Assembly: GCF_023343835.1 (NCBI RefSeq)
Contig: NC_064439.1
Span: 30,047,933 to 30,111,932, forward strand
Direction of reading: 5' to 3'
Source of the DNA: Lagopus muta
Taxonomy: Eukaryota; Chordata; Aves; Galliformes; Phasianidae
DNA: 64,000 nucleotides
Below are positions 12,205 to 59,800 of the stretch, piece by piece (positions within the stretch are counted from its first letter, which is position 1; each line of letters begins with the position of its first letter). The notes under the pieces are model-generated. The model saw only the letters and a program-made list of their open reading frames with translations, did not search any database and was not told the origin of the DNA. Made by a program: the position numbers and the translations under genes.

Positions 12205-13340
12205 CTGGGGAAAGATTGAACTCTAGGTCAGCATTAAACAGAATGGATTCACTCTTCTGAGTCTTGCTGAAATGTAATATTACATGTATTACTTAAATAA
12301 CTTATATTGCCTTCTACAGTATCTGAGAATGGAGACTATGCTAAAGGAAGATGGTGTAATCATACCTCCAAAAAAAAATGTCATTTTTGTTCCCAGAAAT
12401 AGTGTGACTACAAAATGTTATACAGAAAACAGCTAGTTGTAGGATATACTCCTTATACTGAAAACATCTGCAGTTTTGCATCTGTTCTATTAGTCATTTC
12501 AAACACGATATGTAGCTAACGAAACATGACACATTTTAATGTGTTTTCTGCTGTACATTATAAGTACGGAGTGTTAACAAAAGTTAATAGATATATATCT
12601 AAGCTAGACACAGAAGTCTGCTTTGTTTTCCAGTATTGTAGAGTACACGTATCTTCAGACTACATGAGACTAATTTACCTAGATTTCTAAGTACAATTTC
12701 CAGGAAAAATGTTGTTTCCAGGAGAAATGTTTCCAGGAGAAGCATGAGGCACACATTTTCGTGACTACGTACTGATAAGCATTACTCCTTTTCAGAAGCA
12801 CAGAATGCTTTTCCCTGTGAGCCATATCACAGAGAGCGAACAAATGTCTTCCAAGTCTCCAGCCATCATTTTTTTGCCAGCCAGTCTCCATCTGGATGGC
12901 CTTTGTTCACACTTTATCATCATGCTCTTATCAAGCAAGCTCTGCCCCATAACTGAGTGTTGGCATATGGTGTACAACATGAAGACGAATAGCATTTAAT
13001 CTGTGTTTGTGGTTTATCTATGACATATTTTAGATGTTTACCACCTTTGCACCAAACCTCAGTTTGATGATTCAAGACAGTGAGTAGGTTTTCCCCAAGG
13101 AGTCATACCCTCTGGAGACCTTCCAAACACTTTCCACACCAACTAAGTAAGTCTCTGGTGTTAGATCTGCTTTTTCAACCTTAAATTGCTTAAAGTTCAA
13201 TCTTGGATTACATTCCTCAACAAGGCACACTAGGTTCTGCATACAAGAATTTCTGGCACAGTCTGTTAGAATAGCAGCCTATGGAGTTCAGAAGGTGTAG
13301 GAAGGGATTTTGTATAACGACAACCAACCAAGAATTGGTT

Positions 13341-13371
13341 GTTATCAAATTCATATCATGAATTTGATAAC
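13341..13371. repeat. perfect 13-bp inverted repeat (hairpin)
   Basis: Arms GTTATCAAATTCA (13341-13353) and TGAATTTGATAAC (13359-13371) are exact reverse complements around a 5-base spacer. A second, shorter inverted repeat (ACAACCA ... TGGTTGT) lies immediately to the left, around 13321-13342. No function can be assigned; the stem is AT-rich and too short for a typical miRNA precursor. Confidence 0.9.
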
Positions 13372-16300
13372 ATAACTGGTGTTTTCTACTTGAAAGCAGC
13401 ACATCAGTGATTGCTATTTGAGAATCTTATTTGAGACCTCAAGTATTTACAGACTATTAAAACAAAAGTATGATGCCTTCGCATCGCTCCCACAATGGTT
13501 GTATCCTCCTGTTCATTGCATGAAAAGAGAAAAGGGTACTGGGATTTTCATGATCATATTAGTTTTATACCTGTGATCAACTCAATTGTAAGAGAAAGAA
13601 TTAAAAGCACACTCATTCAAAAATGGAATGCAAAGAGGCATCCATCTCCTGACTCTACCACAGTCATTGCAGATGTGCGTCAGGCTACCACTTTTGTAAA
13701 GCATTTCACGTAATTGGTAACCTAAAGTAGGTCATTTTCCCTCTGGAAGAGAAGATAAATTATGGTTTTGATTTGGTTTGGGGCAGATTTAGAGGATTAA
13801 GTATAGTTTTAGCATCAAAGCAGTTAGAAGGTCAAAATATATCAATGGTTGTTGGGTGAAGCTAGACTCATCCAGGTGTTCCTCTCTATCTCTCTGTAAT
13901 TACATGTGGTAACTCACTACCCAGCAAGTCAGTCATGGCAGGAGGTTACACGAGCCCAATGCTTCCACTGGCAGAAGCTGTGGAGATGAAGTCTCTCCAC
14001 CTGCCCAGGCAAATCAGCAGCTGTGTGCTGGACCTTATTGCACATTGGCAACGCTTTGTCAGCCAGCTGCTGTCCCAGCCTGGTATCTGTGTTCCTCTAA
14101 TTTTAAAAGTGACCTTTCTCTGAATTATAGACAAAAGAGAACAAGTAGCCTGCAAATAGGAGCAGCAATGGAACTAAAGGCAGCCAGTGCTTACTGAAGG
14201 AATATGGTATGATTTGATTTTCTAAAAGGTCACACTCCAGGCTAAGTGCCTTTTCCTTCACCTTGCGAACAGAACATACAGCCAGAGGATTGATTTCCTT
14301 CATTGCAAAGCTTATCACCTGCACTGGTCAGGGAGGAATTTCTGCTGAGCTATTACCACTTCTTGTTTAAGTATGATTTTGTATTCTTTGCTAACTAAAT
14401 TATCTGGAAAGGCAAGGCCTGCAGCAATGACTGCAGGGTGGGTGGTTACTTTTGGAAGGTGTATGCTGAATCTGATGGACCAGATCGTTACTTAGGCAGA
14501 TAAATCTATTCTCTTGTTTGAAACTAGAAACTACAAAGTTGAAAATTGCCCCTGACTCTAAGTAATGAAAACACAGAATTTTCTATTCATGCTGAATCCA
14601 TCAAAGGGTAAAAGTATATTAAGTCTCAAGTCAAGCAACTTCCCAATTAGCCAGCAAGGTTTGTATTCATGAAAAATGCAAATTACAGATGAGTGATGAG
14701 ATCTTGAATGTGTTATTATTTTGCAGCCTCAGACTTTTTAGCTAGAATGTTAGTAATAAATAATCCTTCTGAGTGCTCACACTGTGAAATTGCTTGCTGT
14801 TGTGAATACATCTCATCGCTATCTGCAGGTGCAGCATGAAAGTACAGGCACTGTTAATCAGCCCTAAAGTGGTGAAATAGGAAAGAAGGGAAGATCCTTT
14901 CTGTCAATGTTTTCCTGAAAACGCAGCAAATTTGGACAACGTGTTATGCTCAGGAACTTAACTGTGCACCTGGACACAGGTGGGATATGTCAGATACTGC
15001 TTCCTCTGCTATAAGCCCCTCACTCTCCTCCTATATTTCAGAAAGTTTTTCACTTGATTCAGGAAAGAATAGTGACATTTTTTGGAGTGAGCAGGGAAAG
15101 GCGTTATCACATAGCTACGTGCAAAGGGACCAACCCTACAAGTTCTAGGTAGTTCTTCCCAGCAGGCAGCTCAGCAATTATGCCTCTCTTTAAGGGCATC
15201 AATATGCCAGCCTTGAAATGCAGGTGTGCTTATGGTCTACATGCATCACTTCTTGGAGAAAAAAGTTCTTTTTTTTTCCCTTCTTGTATCCATTTTATGC
15301 TTTGGTCCTTTGTGACATATTTAAGTCCTTCTAAATTTCAGACATTTAAATTGTGTTCACTGGCCATATTTGCATGCCAATTTTTGGATTACTCACTGTA
15401 TAATTACATTTTAAAATAGTGTCTAGCAGACCTCTTAGAAGTAATTCAAGGATTCCCTGGGGAGCTGCAGACTATCCCAGATGATGTCTGTATCCTTTGT
15501 TATTCCATTTATTTTCTCCTTTAGAGAGGGGGGGTCATGCAGAACTTAGAGTCAATCTAATTTTTGTTGCAAGTATTTATGTTACACATAAAATACTGCA
15601 AATATATATATATACACACAGAATCACACAGAATATAGTTGAGAAAAAGTTTCATGCAAGTAATTTTGTCTATATTTCCTTCAGTTGATAATCTCTGTAT
15701 GACTTTCCAGTTAGTTTCACACCACTGTCTAACCCATACCCTCTTGTTTTATGCTTGCTTTCAGAGTTGTCAGAGTGTAACCCGTGTGGCTGAGTAATGC
15801 ACATCAAGATGTTTGACAAAAGAAGTCTTACAGGTTTATAAGGAACAATACAGCTTAGGAAAGCATATTCCAGTAGCTCTGTCTGTGTTTTCCAGTTCTA
15901 TAAAAGAAAAGTCATATATAATTTGCACATTATTGTATATTGCCATTTTCTTTTCATATGACAATCTTTGTCTAGCTTGCTACTATAGGCTATAAGCTGG
16001 ATATGTCAGGTTTCTTCCTTCCAGGTTTAGCAGAAGAGCAGATGATCGTGATGTAACAGTAAGTTGTTTCTTCCCTTTGTGAAAGGAGAGAGGGCTATTT
16101 GAAAAAGACAGGAGTCTCAGCAAAAGGCACAAGGATTTTGAAATATATGTTAGTTCTTCTGGCTCTTACATGTTCCACTTCGTAGCTCTGTTTTATAGTT
16201 CCTGTGGAGTAATATGGGGGCAATAATGTCAGAAGCCTAGCATATAGGTCTGGTGAGCTTTCTTTCACTCAGCTTCATGAGGTTCTCTGAGAACACTGGT

Positions 16301-17443
16301 GGCATCAGTGAAATGGAAGAGTTTTTTTCCTTTCTCTTTATTGTTATTTTCACTGGAAATCACAATGCTTAAATAAAAATAATTTACATTCACTAAAAAT
16401 AAGGAAAATAATGGAATATTTTGCAATTTAAATTGCTTTCTGTTTGCCAAAATCTCAGCAATCAGTCCTCACACATATAAAAATCATTTGTCAAATCCAT
16501 GACAGTTATGCAGTGAGAAATCACTGATCTTTCACACAGTTATTGTTATTCATTTAAAACACTTCTGTCAGTTGTGTGCAATAACATCTCACATCTACAT
16601 TTACTGTAGTAAAATAAAAAAAAGAACTAAATTATCTACATTTCTATTACCTTGAGATCTGTGGTGTTTTTTTCCAACCCTCTTATTAAGCAGAATAAGT
16701 CTGGTTTAGCTGCGGGGTTAGATATCTTCATCAAAACATTTACCACTGCAATAGAGGTTGCATGTACTGCATGATCTTTTCTCTTTCAGCCAATGCTATC
16801 TTATTTTTCAAGTAATGCCAAGACAATTCTTCCCTGTTAGACTTCAGGTGCACTGCTTTGACAAAGTTACAGAACTGAAATATTAACATCTCTTTTGTGC
16901 ATTCATAAAAATCCCGAGACAGTTTCAAGTCTGATGTTATAGGTATGACTTCACTGTGCCTCATTTCCAGATAGTGAATTCCATTCTTTGTATCTTCGTT
17001 AATTGCTGGCTCCAACTGACTTCAGCTGCTGTTTTCAATTTATGGTCTGAGGTCTAAGGAAGTATGGACCATTTCTGAGACTTCCAAAGCTAAATAACTT
17101 TGTCATGAGATTAAAATATATTTTGCAGACACCGACATCTTCAATGGAAGACATGAGGAGATAAATTGAAAAGGGTTAAAAATCACTGTGATATAGAATA
17201 TTGAGTCAAATTTAGCTTGGTACTGTATCAGATTTAAACTGCACTCTACAAAGCATTTTCTTCCTTCACAAAGATGAGAAAAGGAATATGATAGTATTTC
17301 AGAGTAAAGTCCTTTAAATCCATGTGATTAGACAGCCACCATATTCAACCCATGGCAACTGAACTTCAATAGCATACAAATTCAATTAAGGAGGAATCAT
17401 GTAAATCTAGATCGAAGACTAAGGTACCATAAGAGTTTCATTC

Positions 17444-17708
17444 CAAAGGGGAAATGATTTTAAACTGAGACTGGGTAGATTTAGGTTAGATATGAGGAGA
17501 AAGTCACCACAGAGGGTGGTGATGCACTGGAACAGGTTGCCCAAGGAGGCTGTGGATGCCCCATCCCCGGAGGCATTCAAGGCCAGGCTGGATGTGGCTC
17601 TGGGCAGCCTGGTCTGGTGGTTGGCGACCCTGCACATAGCAGGGGGGTTGAAACTAAATGATCACTGTGGTCCTTTTCAACTCAGGCCATTCTATGATTC
17701 TGTGATTC
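17444..17708 (+). mobile_element. CR1 LINE fragment, 3' end
   Basis: A truncated chicken-repeat-1 non-LTR retrotransposon in + orientation. It carries the end of the reverse-transcriptase ORF, with the typical peptide HWNRLPKEAVDAPSPEAF and the following FKARLD region. This is followed by the 3' UTR and the family's short terminal repeat (ATTCTATGATTCTGTGATTC). It is 5' truncated as almost all CR1 copies are, and stops and substitutions show it is inactive. The boundary at the 5' side is approximate. Confidence 0.93.
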
Positions 17709-19716
17709 ATTTTACCGTCTAACAGTATTAAAATGTGGCTTGGCCTTAATCTTTATATGTTAATTCTTCTTATGAATGATGCATTTCCTATGCCATTTGC
17801 AATGAAGCTTGGTCATATTCCCCGAGAAAAAAAAAAAAAAGAGAATAAAAATTTTATATGTTTTATTTCAAACTGATTACTTCACTTGTTTTTCCATTAG
17901 GATTCACAGGAGCTGAGGCATCTTTTCAGAAGAACTGGAGGTTTGTGGCCAGTAATCTGCAATAAAAACATTAATTAACTGAGGAAAGCAACATTTAAAA
18001 AGATATTCAAAACTATTTTCTGCTAGAGGCATTTCTTTGGCTACTTTACAAATCATCTGAGGAAAGCAATCTATTTTCAGTGATTTCTTTCTTAAGAAAG
18101 ATTTTCCCATACTTATTTAAAAATGTTTTTGAAGTGAGAGGAAGAGGACAGGAAATCTGCAGATATTGTCAACATTCTGTTTTAAAGACATGAAGAAATT
18201 TAAAGGAAATAGTGCTGCCTTCTATCAAACAACTTTTTTTTTTTTTTTTTTTTAAATTAATAGCATTTTTTATCACCTTGAAGAACTTCTGGAGGTGTCT
18301 GATTGCCTATATTTCTAAGGCACCAAAAGTTCTGTTAGGACAGACAGAAGACAAAGTTTTGTCAACCTCACAAGGAAGATGTGGGAGCTGGAAGAGATGT
18401 GTCTTAGAATACAACTGGTTTAAATTCATTTGAACAGCTAGCTCCTGAGTGCCTCACTATTACTGTAGAGAACATAAAAGTCTCACAACATTTAAATCAC
18501 TTTCTTTTTTTAATACTGTTATTTTAATCAGTCTTTCTTAAGATCTCTCTGCACTAGAAAGTTAGAATTAAATATGCGAGGCTTTGGGTTTCAAATGGAA
18601 AACATCATCTCCCATTTGATATTATTTTTGAAACTAGACCATGCTAACATTTAAAAAATCAGTGAGGATATCTCTACATTTCATTGAATGTGAGATACAA
18701 ACTTGACTAAAATTCACACTTTGTCAAAATGAAACCAAATCAAAATTTGTCCTGTTGCTGAATTCCTCCAGGATTTTGTATTTAGACTCTGTAGTTTGCA
18801 GATGAAATTACACTGCTTTGGGTTGTCTCCGTAACATACTTACAGCTTACATCATACAATAGATTCCTTTCTACTTGCAGATTATTCATGTCTAAGATGA
18901 AGAGCTTTTTCATAATATTTGCTAGCTCTTCTTACATATATGTACATGTGTGTGTAATTTGCAGAGATTGATGATGCAGGCAAAGGTATACAACAGGGCC
19001 AATGGTGCATTTTCAGATTTTTGCATTTTATTATTTTAGTATTTAACAGGGATATTTCATTTCACTGAAATTCTTGTCAACATATTCAACATGATTTAGA
19101 CCAGCCTTTCAGTAACTTGCATGAAAAGTTAAGCTTGAAGGATTATAATGTTCTCTAAGTTCTTTCTTGCTGGAGGGAAACAGATTCAAAATATCTGGAG
19201 GTTAGTAACATATAAGGAGTAAAACAGGCTGACCAATCCCAAGTGAACTTGAAACTGATTAAGTTTGTCATCCAGACACTGAAAAAAATGAATCTTCCAG
19301 TTGCATCCTGAGAATAGAAGCATTTACTCATTTCTCACTCCTTGGAAATATAAATAATGGGTTTTGAATCATTCAGTCTTCTATTCACGACTTCAGTTCA
19401 GACTTTTCCCCCTCAGGTCTAGCTCCAATATGCCATGAACTCAATAACCTGATTCATATAAAGATTACCTAAATCACCAGTATTGTTCATGAACAGCTGT
19501 CAAGAACATGGAAATACTGCAGTGTATTTCAATCTGGGGAAACAGTTACTTTCCTTACAGACTGTTTCTTCGTTGTACAACAATATTGGATAATGTGTAT
19601 GTATGAGTATTTACTTAAATCCATCTGACCTACGATAATTCATGTTCTCTACATGGCTATTCAGAGTCTCCTAACCACACAGTGCCTCTTAGAGCTTGAA
19701 AATCCAATTGCATCCT
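17709..19716. other. intergenic, no gene seen
   Basis: AT-rich sequence between a CR1 copy and an LTR-like repeat. It contains an A run near 17827-17840 and a T run of about 20 bases at 18234-18253. Open frames are at most 73 codons and look random. I see nothing else. Confidence 0.6.
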
Positions 19717-35400: not shown

Positions 35401-36814
35401 CTGCGTGTGCTGTCTAATTTGTCTGATTAATACTTTCACAGTGAGATAAAAATAGCAACAAATAATTACATGATTATGAAGAGCCACAGGGCAAACGCCT
35501 ACCTAGAAGTTTGAAAGTGGCTTCCAGCAGCCATGAATTTGGCACCCTTCACCTGCTACCTTTTCATGGATGAAGCTGGTTCACATGAAGCTTGGTAACA
35601 TCCATCAGCAGCTCTGAGCTCCCTGAGTAGACAAACCTTAAGTAACCTAGGAACAAATTTAAAGGGGCAAAGTAGATGTATCCATGCATATATCTGCACA
35701 TCAAATCTTTGCTGGGGAAGGTCATTAGCTGCTCCAAAGTCCTGTTCTGTTCTCAGTGATAATTTAAAGTCATATATATAAGGCATATCAGAATAATGTG
35801 TATTCCAGTTTTTAAATGTCACTAGTTAGAATTTCAACTTTTTTGTTGCTGGTGTCCTACAGCCAGCACAGGAAATGAGAGGTGACACCAAGAATTCCTT
35901 TCATATCAGAGAAAACTCCATTGGAAAATACTTGTTTAATGCTTCATGCACTTCCATTTTAAAATCCCTTCCTTAAAATATATGTAAAACCCCTCTAAAT
36001 ATCTCAACAAAAATGAATTTATATAAAAGAAAGCTTCAAAATTTAGACTTATGATTATATTATATTCACAATGTAGACTTAATCTTAAAACTGTTTCTTC
36101 TTCTTTTATGTGTTGTGTTTTCCAAGCAGGTGCACAGAACATCACCAGACCAGCTTTCTTAGTAACACCAAAGTAATGCTAAGTCTTGGTTTTATTCTTC
36201 AGAGGTATTCCTTCACTTCTCTGACTTCAGCTCCTCGGGGCATCAATAGAACCCAGTACTACTTATTTTAAGCTTGTTTTGGATGTCATAGACATGGAAA
36301 CTCTATGCATCAGCAGCAGTTTTATATCCTTCCCCCCAACCAGGATCAACATTCAAAACTCCTAGAGTAGTCTAAATCCAGTTTTAAATGAACGATTTGT
36401 TGCAAGCACAATAAGACAACAAAGTTCAGTAGTAAGGGAAGTACTCCTGGATTTGAGGGCTTAGGTACAGTGCCTGTTCCACAGAGGCTTTTCTAAATGC
36501 CTCAGGCAAGTCATCTAATGATATCTATGCAACTAAGTATACTCTGTGAATATGGACGTTAGCATCTCTGTTCTTTGATATCCCAAATCTACTGGAGCTG
36601 GTAAAACTTCTTGATTTTACTAGGGTGCTGTTAGCATGCAAATACTAAAAATCAGACGTACAATAATTTTTCAGAGGTAAGATCCTTTTTCAGAGTCCCA
36701 TGGTGTTCTGATAGTTGAGATCATTATAGTCTCAAGCAGAAGTTCAGAAAGCATATATGTACATATGCACACACTTTTATGAACAACAGAAAGACCCTCA
36801 CTAAATTCTGATCC

Positions 36815-37232
36815 AAAAAAGGGAAGTATCTACCCTATGAAGAAATGCTAAGTGAACTGGATCTGTTTAGCCTTGAGAAAAGAAGACTGAGAGGAGACCT
36901 GATCCAGGTCTATAAATATCTGAGGTGTGGGGGGCAGAGCGGCGAGGCTGGACTCTTTTCAGCAGTGCGTGGAGACAGGATGAGGGGAAATAGCCAGAAA
37001 CTGCAGCATAGGAAGTTCTGCACAAATGTGCACAAGAACTTCTTTACAGTGAGGGTGACGGAGCACTGGAACAGGCTGCCCAGGGAGGTTGTGGAGTCTC
37101 CTGTGGACATATTCAAGACCTGTCTGGACACCTACTTGTGCGACCTGGTGTAGGGAACCTGCTTTGGCAGGGGGGTTGGACTCAATGATCTCTGGAGGCC
37201 CCTTTCAACCCCTACGATTCTGTGATTCTATG
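36815..37232 (+). mobile_element. CR1 LINE fragment with readable ORF2 C-terminus
   Basis: A 5'-truncated CR1 in + orientation. A 102-codon open frame (36845-37153) reads through without a stop. It gives LFSLEKRRLRGDLIQVYKYL, later NFFTVRVTEHWNRLPREVVE, and ends in LCDLV with a stop, which is the normal C-terminal end of the CR1 reverse-transcriptase polyprotein. The 3' UTR follows and ends in the ATTCTGTGATTCTATG terminal repeat. The lack of frameshifts in this tail makes it look younger than the other CR1 copies here. It cannot be active because the endonuclease and most of the polymerase are absent. Confidence 0.95.
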
Positions 37233-41360: not shown

Positions 41361-41823
41361 ATGCTTGTTCTAAAAACTAAAGCCTGATGGCAGCTGTGGC
41401 AGTGTATGATAACCTTCCAACATGTAGAAGGTTCCCATAAACAGGGATGCTGCTGACTGTTTTTTGTGACGTTGAGAACAAAACAAAGACAAACAAAAAA
41501 TTGACAGGTGTCAATTGTAGAAGGAAAAGCTCAGGCTAAAATAGGGAAAACTTCTATAGACAGAAATAGATTGTAAAGATGTAGTGTGAGTCTCCACCAT
41601 TTAGGTTTTAAGAACAAGTTAGAAAAACAAGCATTAGAGGTTCTTCATTCCTTGGAAGTGGAGAAAGGCAGTACGAACTCTGCAGTTTTTTCATTCTAGC
41701 TACTGTTGTTAATAGTGTCAAAGAAACAGAAATCTTGTAACTTAAATGACCTCTTTTATTTTGATACCATATGTTTTCATAACAATTTCTAATAATGACT
41801 GCACTTTTTTATCTACAAAAATA

Positions 41824-42095
41824 ATCATAGAATCATAGAATGGTTTGGGTTGGAGGGGACCTTTAAGATCATCTAGTTCCAACCCCCTGCTATAGGCAGG
41901 GACACCTCCCTCTAGACCAGGTTGCTCAAAGCCCCATCCACTTGGCCTTGAACGCTTCCAGGGAGGGGACATCCACAACCTCTCTGGACAATCTTTTCCA
42001 GTGTCTCACCATTCTCACAGTAAAGAATTTCTTCCTGACATCTAGTCTAAACCAACCCTCTTCCAGTTTTTAAAACCATTTCCCCTTATCCTTGC
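41824..42095 (-). mobile_element. CR1 LINE fragment, 3' end, reverse orientation
   Basis: The left edge is the terminal repeat in reverse complement (ATCATAGAATCATAGAATGG). It is followed by the reverse complement of the CR1 3' UTR and the end of ORF2, reading away to about 42095. It is the only clearly minus-oriented CR1 in the window. The right boundary is approximate. Confidence 0.95.
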
Positions 42096-48474: not shown

Positions 48475-48900
48475 GGCCGTCCCGCTCCTCCCCGCTCCGG
48501 CTGCGACCGGCCTTCTCCCCGCTACCCCCACCCCACCCTCCGCCTCCTCCTCCTCCTTCTCCTCCCCCCTAGAGCGGCGCCTCAGCGGGGCATTAATGCG
48601 GGATGAGCGGTATGTAACCCCCTCCCTCCTCCCTCCCGAGCACACCCCTCCCGCCCTCCCTCCGCTCCTCCCTCCACCCTCCGTCCCCTCCATCCCGCCC
48701 TCCCGCGTCCCCCCGTTTCTTCCCCGGGTCCCCCCGCTCACCCCGCCCTTCCTCCCGCGCCCCCTTTCTTCTCCTCCTCCCGCCGTGCCGCCCTCCTCCG
48801 TTCCCCCTTTCTTCGCAGCCCTCCCTCCCGTGCACATCCCTCCCTCCTTCATTTCTCTTTGCCTCCCTCCTTCCCTCCCATGCACAACCCTCCTCCTGCC
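48475..48900 (+). repeat. pyrimidine-rich tract across SP4 exon 1/intron 1
   Basis: From about 48475 to 48900 the + strand is dominated by C and T (CCTCC, CCCTCCC and similar units), so the template strand is G-rich with many GGGAGG-type runs. The SP4 ATG and first splice donor are inside this tract, in the one short interruption. The strand asymmetry just downstream of a CpG promoter could favour G-quadruplex formation on the template strand. Reading it as protein gives proline/serine-rich frames that are artefacts. Confidence 0.85.
48603..48609 (+). CDS. SP4: SP4 coding exon 1 (7 coding bases)
   Basis: The coding part of exon 1 is ATG AGC G, giving Met-Ser and the first base of Asp. It is followed directly by a good donor, GTATGT, at 48610. 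The start is fixed by an in-frame TAA at 48594-48596 only two codons upstream and by the spliced N-terminus MSDQKKEE, which matches the known SP4 N-terminus. The 5' UTR part of this exon extends upstream into the CpG island; its beginning cannot be placed from sequence. Intron 1 (48610-49220, 611 bp) is phase 1. Confidence 0.9.
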
Positions 48901-48966
48901 CCCTGAAGCATCGACGGCCACTCAGTGGCCGATGCTTCGGGGGGCAGGAGGAGGAGGAGGGTTGTG
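48883..48966. repeat. 84-bp near-perfect inverted repeat in SP4 intron 1
   Basis: Left arm 48883-48922 and right arm 48924-48966 are reverse complements around a single central C (48923). Differences are a 3-base insertion in the left arm (ACG, 48914-48916), a 6-base TCC-type length difference and one T-G wobble position. The core GAAGCATCG/CGATGCTTC and the inner GCCACT/AGTGGC are exact. In RNA this would be a very stable hairpin. It sits about 275 bases after the first splice donor, at the 3' edge of the CpG island. It could be genuine or an assembly/fold-back artefact. Confidence 0.93.
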
Positions 48967-49220
48967 GGTGGTTTTCTCCTGCTGTCTCCGGGAGAGGAAA
49001 CCAAACCTCCCCTTTCTGGGTGTTAACTCTCCAGCCCCCATGGGTTGGGTTTCAAACCACGTTTCTCAGGACTCGGTTCTTTTGTAATAATGGTTTGCGC
49101 CGTTGTTTTTACGGAGAGATACGGGCGAGAAGCTGGGAACCAAAAAGGATACGCTTGTAGGTTTTGTTATTGTATAAATGAAGGTGAATAATTAACCTGT
49201 TACACTTGATATTTTTGCAG

Positions 49221-49784: not shown

Positions 49785-51342
49785 GATTCTCAGCCTTCAC
49801 CTCTTGCTTTGCTAGCAGCCACTTGCAGCAAAATAGGAACTCCTGGTGAGAATCAAGCAACTGGACAGCAGCAGATTATTATAGATCCCAATCAAGGGTT
49901 GGTGCAGCTTCAAAATCAGCCACAACAGTTAGAATTAGTAACAACTCAGCTCGCTGGAAACTCTTGGCAGCTTGTTGCTGCATCTCCTTCTGCTTCAAAG
50001 GACAATAATGTTGCTCAACAGGGATCTTCCGTTGCCTCAAGCGCACCAAGTCCCTCCAGCAGTAACAATGGGAGTGCATCTCCTACAAAAACTAAATCGG
50101 GCAATTCTTCTGCAACAACCCCTGGACAATTTCAAGTCATTCAAGTACAAAATCCAAGTGGTAGTGTCCAGTATCAAGTGATACCACAGATTCAGACAAC
50201 AGAAGGTCAACAAATTCAAATCAATCCTGCAAATGCTACTGGTCTACAAGATATACAGGGTCAAATTCAGCTTATTCCTGCAGGAAATAATCAAGCTATC
50301 CTCACGGCTTCAAATAGGACAGCTTCGGGAAATATTATTGCTCAGAACCTAGCAAATCAGACGGTCCCAGTCCAAATCAGGCCTGGTGTTTCCATACCAC
50401 TGCAATTGCAAACCATCCCTGGTACTCAGGCACAAGTGGTGACAACTTTACCTATAAACATTGGTGGAGTAACCCTAGCATTGCCTGTGATAAACAACAT
50501 GGCAGCTGGAGGAAGTTCAGGTCAAGTTGGCCAATCCACAGAGGGTGGAGTTTCCAATGGAAGTCAGCTGGCATCTACACCGGTCACTTCTGCCTCTGTT
50601 AGCTCAATGCCAGACTCTCCTTCTTCATCGTCCACTTCTACGACCACTGCTTCAACATCTCTAACTAGCAGTGACACCTTAGTAAGCTCTGCAGAAACAG
50701 GCCAGTACACAAGCACAGCAGGCGGCAGTTCAGAGCAGCCAACGGAAGAATCTCAAGCAACTGCGACAGACTCTGAAGCCCAAAGCTCCAGTCAGCTTCA
50801 GTCAAATGGATTACAGAATGTTCAGGATCAGTCAGGTTCCCTTCAGCAGGTACAGATTGTAGGTCAACCTATTCTACAGCAGATACAGATCCAGCAGCCT
50901 CAGCAGCAAATTATACAGGCCATTCCTCCACAGTCATTTCAGCTCCAGTCAGGACAAACTATACAGACCATCCAGCAGCAGTCTTTGCAGAATGTTCAGC
51001 TGCAGGCAGTAAGTCCAACTCAGGTGCTCATCCGGGCTCCAACTTTAACACCATCAGGACAGATCAGTTGGCAGACTGTACAGGTTCAGAATCTGCAAAG
51101 CCTTTCAAATCTTCAAGTTCAGAACGCTGGGTTACCCCAGCAACTCACCATTACCCCTGTGTCTTCAAGTGGTGGCACAACCATTGCCCAAATTGCTCCA
51201 GTGGCTGTTGCTGGTACCCCGATCACCCTGAATGCTGCCCAGCTTGCTTCAGTACCTAATCTTCAAACAGTAAGTGTTGCCAACCTTGGTGCTGCAGGTG
51301 TTCAAGTTCAAGGAGTTCCAGTTACTATTACCAGTGTTGCAG
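49785..51342 (+). CDS. SP4: SP4 coding exon 3: Sp box and transactivation domains
   Basis: 1,558 bases with no stop, between acceptor CTGGGTAG (ending 49784) and donor GTGAGT (51343). It encodes residues 37-555 plus one base. In order: the Sp box SPLALLAATCSKIG (residues 41-54), the glutamine-rich A region (about 57-294) rich in QxQ and IQVQ patterns, a Ser/Thr-rich segment (about 295-350), and the glutamine-rich B region (about 373-544) with QQIQIQQPQQQ. SP4 is a nuclear Sp/KLF activator that binds GC boxes. The Q-rich regions contact the general transcription machinery, and in mammals it is prominent in neurons. The sequence is SP4-specific rather than SP1 or SP3 (for example GQQQIIIDPNQGLVQLQNQP). 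The DNA-binding zinc fingers are encoded by later exons outside the window, so the gene is partial here. Opening the frame at the TTG at 49809 would be wrong, since the exon reads open back to its acceptor. Confidence 0.97.
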
Positions 51343-51462
51343 GTGAGTGATCTGACAAAGTGTTGCATTGGTTGTTTTTTGTTTGTTTTTGAAATGGTGG
51401 GGTTTTGGTTGGTTCTTTTACCATGGTGAAAATGCTAGGCAGTTTTTAATACTTTCAAAGGC

Positions 51463-53047: not shown

Positions 53048-53607
53048 TACATCTGTTGCACTGACAGTAATGCCTCTTGTTTATTTCAATGGAAACTAGC
53101 AGAAACATAGAGCACAATGATAGTATTTGGTAAAGCAAATTCTGAGCTACAAAACATTATTTTTCAAAATAATCACCACCATTACCTCTGCATTTCTGCC
53201 AATGATGAACAGGAGCCTGCATACCACTCTTCTAGAAACAATATGTGCCAATGGAGGTGACCTACTGTTTCTGTCACCACCTCTGAAAAGCACTACCTAT
53301 CATCTCACTGTGCTCACTTTCACTGTTTTGTGGCCATAAATGTTCAGCAAGCATCATTCGAATGTCAGTGGGTACCGTTCTTTTTCCATGGGGGAATTCA
53401 ATTCTGTACTTTTGCTTCATGTGCACTTGCATGTCAGACACCATTCTGTCGGACTGCCCTGCTGCTGCCATCTGTTGCACGCCAACAAAATGTAAGGGAA
53501 TACTGATGGGAAGGCTTAGTCTCTACTGTCATACTACCAGTATCCCCCTCTGATGTCATGGGCCAACATAATAAATAGGAGGCATTATTTTTGGAGCAGC
53601 CCTTGTA
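53048..53607 (-). mobile_element. mariner (Galluhop-like) element, internally deleted
   Basis: The two ends are inverted repeats. The right end, reversed, starts TACAAGGGCTGCTCC and continues to AATGCCTCCTATTTATT. The left end, TACATCTGTTGCAC, continues to AATGCCTCTTGTTTATT. This is the end sequence I associate with chicken Galluhop/mariner-1. A minus-strand frame (53274-53480) gives AAAGQSDRMVSDMQVHMKQ and resembles the transposase start region. At about 560 bp against roughly 1.2 kb for full copies, the catalytic part is missing, so it is non-autonomous. It lies between TA dinucleotides inside a CR1 copy, as mariner insertion requires. Confidence 0.85.
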
Positions 53608-53895
53608 CATGATCTGAGATTGACAAGGGGGAACGGCGTTAAACTTGAAGGCAGGTTTAGGTTAGATGTTAGGAGGAAATTCTTTATGCAGAGGGTAGTG
53701 AAGCACTGTAACAGGCTGCCCAGAGAAGTGATGGATGTCCCATCTCTGGAGGTGTTCAAGGCCAGGTTGGATGTGCCCTGGACTGCCTGATTCTAGATGG
53801 TGGCAACCCTACCCATAGGGGATTGGAGCTAGATGATCTTCAGAATCCCTTCCAACCCAAGTCATTTTATGATTCATTTTATTCTGTGATGATTT
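53608..53895 (+). mobile_element. CR1 LINE fragment split by the mariner element
   Basis: A CR1 3' end in + orientation, with the AGGTTAGATGTTAGGAGGAA block, a CTGTAACAGGCTGCCCAGAG block and CTTCCAACCCAAGTC near the end, then degenerate terminal repeats (TTTATGATTC, ATTCTGTGATG). Joining the bases just left of the mariner (GCAACTTTTTA) to CATGATCTGAGATTGACAAG restores the normal CR1 order, so the mariner landed in this CR1. The left remnant is short, about 53025-53049. Confidence 0.9.
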
Positions 53896-55377: not shown

Positions 55378-55680
55378 CTGGGTCTATAAGAAGGAAGGGG
55401 CAGGGTCTTTAGCAGGGTCTGTTGTGATATGACAAGTGGAAATGGTTTCAAACTAGAAGAGGAGCGATTTAGATTGGTTGTAAGAAAAAAGCTTTTTATG
55501 ATAAGGGTAATAAAGCACTGGAACAGATTGCCCAGAGAGGTAGTGGATGCCCCATCCTTGGAGACGTTCAAGATTAGGCTGGACAAGGCACTGAGCAATA
55601 TGATCTAGCTGTAGGTGTCCCTGTTCCTTAGACTAGATGACGTTCAGAGGTCCCTTCCAACTCAAATGATTCTATGGTTC
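55378..55680 (+). mobile_element. CR1 LINE fragment, 3' part of a split copy
   Basis: Continuation of the CR1 left at 55054: GTCTATAAGAAGGAAGGGGC, the GGTTTCAAACTAGAAGAGGA block, the ORF2 C-terminal region (ACTGGAACAGATTGCCCAGA) and a terminal ATGATTCTATGGTTC. The copy is 5' truncated and inactive. Confidence 0.93.
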
Positions 55681-56855: not shown

Positions 56856-59800
56856 ACTTTCAGGCATGACTTCCTGTCCACACCTCCCTAAGGGTCTGTG
56901 AAGTTTTACAGAAAAAAAAATGTAGAAAGTGTCAGTCAAAAGAAGAATTAAAAATAGAAGGGGGCAGGGGGAGGAAGCCGGATGAGAAAGATGTAGAAAC
57001 TATCTATTTGAGCTTTAAAGCAAGATCTGTGAATAGTGATTTATTTAAGAGTTAATCAAACCTAAATGCAATTGTGATCACTTGAACGTGCAGGGATCTG
57101 TATACACCTGCCTTGCTGTGAGATTAGTACCAGTCATAGCCTTTAGGCAAGCTAGTTCTGTACAAAGTGAAGTGCATTTTTGTGTTCTCTGAGTTCATGT
57201 TTTATATGTGATTCCCTGTGGAATGGAAAGTCTGTGGTATTAATCAGAAGTAAAATAGATGGTGACTTCATGAATTTGTCCCAAATAAGCTTGGGTTCAT
57301 GCAGGTAATAGGCAATTCTCTTGCCTTTTTTTCAAAGCTTCTGTTGCGATAGGTGTGGATGCAAGATCAAAAGATTCTCCCTGTCTCTTAAAATAAGATA
57401 GCCTTTGCCTTTTTAAAGCCTATTTTCAATTCCTTTTATTTGCCCAAATGTGTTAATTGACAAAAGTAATTTGTTTTAGTATTAGATGGTTCTAAGAAGA
57501 ATAATTTGTCAAGCCATTTTCTTTTGGTGAACTAATTTACTTCATCCCTCATTGTGTTGATCTTGGAGTATATTTGTACTAACGATAGCATGAGTATTTG
57601 TGGGTGCTGATGAATATGGGGTGAAATAAAACATCAGTTTTATTAAGACCAGTTACACTGTAAGAAAACGGTGACAATTCATGTTTTGTCTGTAAGGGTT
57701 TTGTGTTCTGCCTGTTCTTATGCTGGGGTGGTCAGTAGAGGTCTCAAGCTTCTTTTGAATTTGTTCATTGTTTTTGCTGGCAGCAGAAATATACAGATCC
57801 TCTCCTACTGGTGTGAACAGTGGCTTTACAGAATAACTTAGTTACTTAGGAAAAAGAGTTAATAGGTTGAAATTGCGTCTATCTTAATTACGTTTCTTGA
57901 AATAATTTTGTTATATGATGTTTAGCTTTTCTTACTGAGTTGTTTTTGTTTTCAAAACATGAAGATAAAAGTTACAGCTTTGTTATTTACTTGCTTTAAG
58001 CAAGAGTTCCCAGATCCCACCACCTTGTGACTGAAGTCATTTTAAGATGAGCATTGATGTGGCCTGAATGATGGGGAATTGGTAGTTCGTCCATCAGAAC
58101 AAAATGGAGGAATGGCTTGTGTTCAGTGGAAAGGTTTGCTGCCTGGCAGCACTGCGACTGGGGAGTTTTAAGAGACTTCTATAGGGATGTGCTGTGGATT
58201 CTAAAGCAGTTGTTACTGACTATGTGAGTTCAATACTAAGTGTTGTCATTAGAATGCTTGAAAAAATGTCATGAGCCTCATTCTTTGCTTTCATAATTTC
58301 TAGTAATGTGAGTTTCTAAGGCTTTTTTCCTTCTTGACAACCTACTTTCATTCTGCTACTGTTAGTAGTTGCACAGTTTGCCAGCATCTTAGTTCTCATC
58401 CTGTCTTGTATTTCTCAGGTTTGTCTACATCCATCTTATGCTTTGTTTTCCCTTTGCTTCTTTATTGACTCTTCTTGTGTGAGTCACTAATTCTGACTTG
58501 CTGTTCAGAAAAAGAAGAGATTGTTTACATGTTATTACCATTCTGGTTTAGACTTCGCAGGAGAGTTTGAAGGATTTAGTATAATGTTTCAAATAGGAAA
58601 AAGTATACAAGATTAAATGCATGCAACTTAAAGACTGTGAGTCAAAGGTGTTTCTAATTAAGTATTTAGTTTCTCATCACATCTGATGTTGATTACATAC
58701 AAAAGTAATCGTTTTTCCCACTCTTAAGTGATTTGCTGCTAACATCTTCATGAGCCAGAAGTGCTACTTATACTTGATCTTTGAATTATTTTTCTTCTAT
58801 GAACTTATCCTTTTTTTTTTTTAAGTCCATTTTTTTTTTTACGTGTTCACTGCTTGTCTGAAATAAATACACTGTCTTAATTGTTGCGTTAAGGACCTTT
58901 TATTTAGTGTTCTCAAACTCTTCTATCATGAGAAATTGAACGATCCTTTGGACAACTCACAATCTGCTGTTATCTCATTCTTTTGTGTTAGTTACCAAGG
59001 AAGGGAAGGGGTTTAGCCTAAAGTCCTAGAATGTTACATCTATTTCATTAAATGAAAGTATATTTTCATGACAATGTAATCATTGGATCTCCTTGCTCAT
59101 ATTAGTGTGACAGTGAGTATGTATAGAGTCATAAGATAGTGAGTTGAGCAAGGAGGGGTAGCCATAGGCAGTGACAACATGAAAAGGGTTTAAAATAGCC
59201 ATATTTTTGTAGCTGCAAACTGGCATGTATAATTACCCAGCGTGAGAATCAAAGGAACTAATGTATGGTGATTACTTGAGGTTTTTAGAACAACATCCAG
59301 CGTTTCCCTGGATGCTCACTGGGAAGCAAGCTGTGGCAAACACCTTGAAAGAAACACAAGCTACAAACCTGTGGGATCTGTAATAAGAAAGATAAGTACA
59401 AAGAACTGAGCTGTTTTCTACAAAGGCAGAAGAAATGCAGGATTTCTGCTTAGCTTTTGCAGTTTTTAATGTTACTTGGCTCTGGGGATGTAGTTGGGAA
59501 GAGTATCAAAACTTACTGTACTTCTTCCAAAGTCATGAAAGGTCACTTGCATCTGTTCTCAGGTTGCCTTAGCTGAGAACTGTTGCGGAACCTCAGTGTT
59601 CTGAATGTTCTAGTACTGGTGTTCTTTTCAAATGCTTCAAGGTAATTAGAAGCATTTAGTCTTCTAATGACAAAATTGCTGTGTTGGATTTTCTTAAACT
59701 GAAATTGAAAATAGTGGTAGAAGGAATTTAACGAGAAACCTTGCTGATGACAGCAAATGTTTGAGTAGGCAATGGTAGTTTAAAAATAAAGTATTGATAT

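Follow-up and report, generated by a model that had tools for sequence, protein, structure and literature searches.

A near-perfect 84-base palindrome in a ptarmigan intron and its probable origin by a fold-back template switch

How does a stretch of intronic DNA come to face its own reverse complement across a single base? The question is raised by positions 48883-48966 of the window, by which we mean the whole stretch of 64,000 bases of Lagopus muta DNA that was analysed (C10:30047933-30111932 of an assembly of 1,026,658,476 bases in 165 contigs). A first-pass annotation, made from the letters only, had described there a near-perfect inverted repeat in SP4 intron 1, with a fold-back duplication as one alternative among its possible origins. 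The analysis confirms that the palindrome is a real feature of the sequence, 84 bases long, and points to a short-range replication template-switch (fold-back) mutation as the event that probably produced it.

The palindrome and its host intron

The host intron extends over 48610-49220 on the + strand (611 bases). Its splice reads ATGAGCG/gtatgt...gcag/ATCAAAAG, and exons 1 and 2, once joined, encode MSDQKKEETMPTEGEKSPEAENN. We take a gene whose product starts in this way to be SP4. The earlier placing is thus upheld for the intron, which has gt...ag ends and a reading frame kept across the splice, whereas the gene name has no support from a database: downstream of the exon 1-2 reading there is a long open frame rich in Q, S and T (49785-51350), and a Pfam search of this large exon found no family. 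When part of the same exon (49785-50700) was compared with the viral_contigs collection, 21 stretches matched by pattern and none of the 21 was confirmed. Open reading frames that we presume, from a motif, to be C-terminal fragments of the CR1 LINE ORF2 are found at 17423-17722 (+), 36812-37153 (+), 41742-42005 (-), 53575-53790 (+) and 55390-55608 (+); their likeness to the end of the CR1 reverse transcriptase fits a bird or reptile host. The palindrome itself is 273 bases away from the 5' end of the intron and 254 bases from its 3' end, so that it touches no splice site.

Centred on C48923, an unpaired base identified both by the fold-back scan and in the folds, the palindrome has a left arm of 40 bases (48883-48922, + strand) and a right arm of 43 bases (48924-48966, + strand), both delimited by their pairing. 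Alignment of the arms gives 37 paired positions, 36 of them Watson-Crick and one a T·G wobble (T48904 against G48939). An unmatched ACG in the left arm (48914-48916, + strand) adjoins CG repeats, at a placement that may move by a few bases between scorings as gap positions do, and the right arm carries two extra TCC/GGA units (6 bases). The places where the arms differ are a stretch reading CG-A-CG-G, a run of TCC units and a single TpG/CpG site. The alignment therefore bears out the first-pass description in its coordinates, arm lengths, centre, wobble, unmatched ACG and difference in TCC copy number, and with 36 of 37 positions complementary around a single base, 'near-perfect inverted repeat' is the right term. 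The centre reads GGCCACT-C-AGTGGCC, a perfect core with arms of 7 bases. Beyond 48883 and 48966 there is a possible weak continuation of the arms (CCATG against CCACC), in low-complexity sequence.

As single-stranded DNA or RNA, the palindrome is predicted to be able to form a hairpin of about 37 pairs. The DNA fold of 151 bases is at -48.8 kcal/mol (z = -8.0), and none of 200 shuffles is as low. RNA folding, a check that had been proposed for this site, likewise predicts a stable hairpin over 131 bases, with -83.7 kcal/mol for the sense strand (z = -7.3) and -78.5 kcal/mol for the antisense strand (z = -6.6), and in neither case does any of 200 shuffles go as low. The predicted folds leave 3 bases unpaired at the centre, where the alignment has a single one. 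As a side observation, the + strand of the right arm and its border (48939-48971) combines a G-run with (GGA)n, so that a quadruplex might arise there in competition with the hairpin.

Rank against chance and copy number

With gaps allowed, the fold-back score of the palindrome is 24.5. None of 500 dinucleotide shuffles of 48601-49220 reaches this value (maximum 11.0). A Gumbel fit to those 500 shuffles gives p = 0.002, a figure that we distrust and do not use because the fit was made to scores cut off by a seed rule. When the two halves are shuffled separately, which preserves a C-rich left half and a G-rich right half, 0 of 10,000 shuffles reach 24.5 and the maximum is 15.5. Within the window this is the top short-loop palindrome found. 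The runner-up, at 15.0, is a site made of two adjacent AT-rich hairpins at 13320-13372 (13320-13342 and 13340-13372, with 15-base perfect arms and a 3-base centre). In a sample of the contig, 20 stretches of 10 kb amounting to 199,837 bases without N, hence a single contig and 0.02% of the genome, none of 255 sites reaches 24.5; the best, a TA microsatellite with a score of 20.0, is the one site that attains 20, and three reach 12. This comparison of scores depends on the base composition of the sample, since the intron upstream of the palindrome has 70% G+C against 38% for the window.

To be sure, palindromes are no rarity at large. According to a review (PMC7999016), the human genome has about 180,000 near-perfect, spacerless palindromes longer than 40 bp, a count that permits mismatches and no spacer as described and so differs from the measure used here. 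The same source has the risk rise with arm length, arm similarity and shortness of the spacer. The first-pass view of this palindrome as unusual and often unstable is thus apt for its score, exceptional in this sequence, but has to be tempered by the abundance of human counterparts.

The searches located the palindrome at one place in its genome. A DNA search with 48850-49000 (151 bases) returned that place and, on the opposite strand, the match of the palindrome to its own other arm, at 87% across 66 bases; the search ignores simple repeats and very common words, and leaves copies made of TCC/GGA only uncounted. When as many as 3 mismatches are allowed, a 24-base core has one forward and no reverse match in the 1.03 Gb of the genome, and its pattern has no exact match in genome_contigs or in viral_contigs. 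The titles and abstract openings listed on template switching, on palindromes of bird genomes and, in a narrow search, on hairpins of SP4 introns make no mention of the palindrome at 48883-48966.

A probable native arm and its presumed inverted copy

The two arms do not sit equally well in their surroundings. The + strand of the upstream intron is heavily biased towards C and T, and a first-order Markov model trained on the upstream flank (48609-48870) favours the present orientation of the outer left arm (48879-48904) by +28.2 bits, while it disfavours the outer right arm (48939-48970) by -47.8 bits, the latter fitting only when reversed. These values amount to a single observation counted twice, because the arms are mutual reverse complements. 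A model of the downstream flank is neutral on direction (-0.3 bits for the left, +2.1 for the right). Moreover, the start of the left arm (48867-48893) belongs to the same local family of direct repeats as an upstream segment at 48817-48843 (+ strand), with identities to the reference copy at 48625-48651 of 78% and 81% respectively. Because of the upstream-flank scores and of this repeat family, the left arm is probably the native sequence and the right arm the inverted copy. The argument, made within a single genome, combines an upstream composition that favours the left arm with a neutral downstream one. It is weakened by low complexity: elsewhere, the best reverse match of the left half (13.0, near 56932-56960 of the window) exceeds its best direct match (11.0, in the intron).

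A template switch leaves a reverse-complement copy next to its source, and such a copy is seen here, with 36 of 37 positions matching across a 1-base centre. Together with the asymmetry of flank composition, this match makes the fold-back duplication first offered as an alternative the best explanation. During replication of the C/T-rich intron, the growing strand would have jumped, exactly at today's centre or close to it, to the complementary or the nascent strand, read about 40 bases of the left side in reverse as its template, and then gone back to its own template. The right arm would have arisen in this way as an inverted copy adjacent to the left arm, the original. The arms would later have diverged by slippage (the ACG and the two TCC units) and by the decay of one CpG. 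The differences do look like this, slippage being suspected because the CG-A-CG-G stretch and the TCC run are both slippage-prone, and it was fair to read the divergence as a mild argument for real DNA. The anatomy, its excess over chance, the one place found and the strand asymmetry are observed; the switch, its direction, the later changes and the neutrality considered below are what we infer from this one genome.

Comparative work reports that template-switch events create hairpins in one step (PMC8794818) and that thousands of short events of this kind occurred in great apes (PMC7954356). In the account of Monttinen and Loytynoja (2022, PMC8794818), the hairpins share with ours a local reverse-complement copy of tens of bases, a near-perfect stem and mismatches thought to be later in origin; unlike those systems, the palindrome here has no link to an RNA gene. 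In the four-point model described in PMC7954356, four switch points account for a cluster of mutations relative to an ancestor or sister, whereas the comparison here is between two arms within one genome. Near-perfect arms, almost no spacer and an intronic place are also found in the eukaryotic quasi-palindromes reviewed in PMC7999016, where the PATRRs are AT-rich and several hundred bases long, whereas our palindrome is far shorter and C/G-rich.

Rival origins, function and meaning

Other origins must be weighed against a single switch. An older imperfect palindrome may have grown or been homogenised stepwise by quasi-palindrome correction, itself the classical template-switch pattern (PMC7954356), and the short perfect centre, with its 7-base arms, is a possible seed. 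We consider this unlikely, as identity at 36 of 37 positions along the full length is simpler with one copy event and base composition points to an original arm and a copied one. An artefact of assembly or sequencing, such as a fold-back read, is quite improbable on the assembly sequence, where a single substitution and two indels, of a natural type, set the arms apart. C/G-rich flanks and hairpins are hard to sequence, a point in favour of the artefact. As for a transposon remnant, a MITE with terminal inverted repeats, its inverted arms would be expected, yet only one place was found in 1.03 Gb and, by eye, the flanks differ and show no target-site duplication. On the single place and the missing duplication this barely credible origin was set aside.

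A further reading is a hairpin that does something, whether as a microRNA-like precursor or as a structure slowing the polymerase or affecting splicing in SP4 intron 1. At -83.7 kcal/mol over 131 bases, the RNA fold is predicted to be very stable, and the site is a transcribed, promoter-near intron; however, the folds have a loop of only 3 bases, the palindrome keeps at least 254 bases from either intron end, and a search of the whole 64-kb window with 4227 Rfam families gave no match at the gathering score. A known RNA family is thereby ruled out at that threshold, although a family match is not strictly required of a new microRNA precursor. On balance a functional hairpin has little probability, and neutral DNA is the most economical view; the palindrome is most likely neutral. 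It is more doubtful still that a newborn hairpin in the intron of a transcription-factor gene would already yield small RNAs or slow the polymerase. If it did, the intron would capture the moment at which template switching gives rise to a regulatory RNA.

Taken alone, the palindrome leaves the views held in the field as they are. It neatly illustrates how a single error of replication may give a 37-pair intronic hairpin, and such hairpins are a proposed raw material for new microRNAs (PMC8794818).
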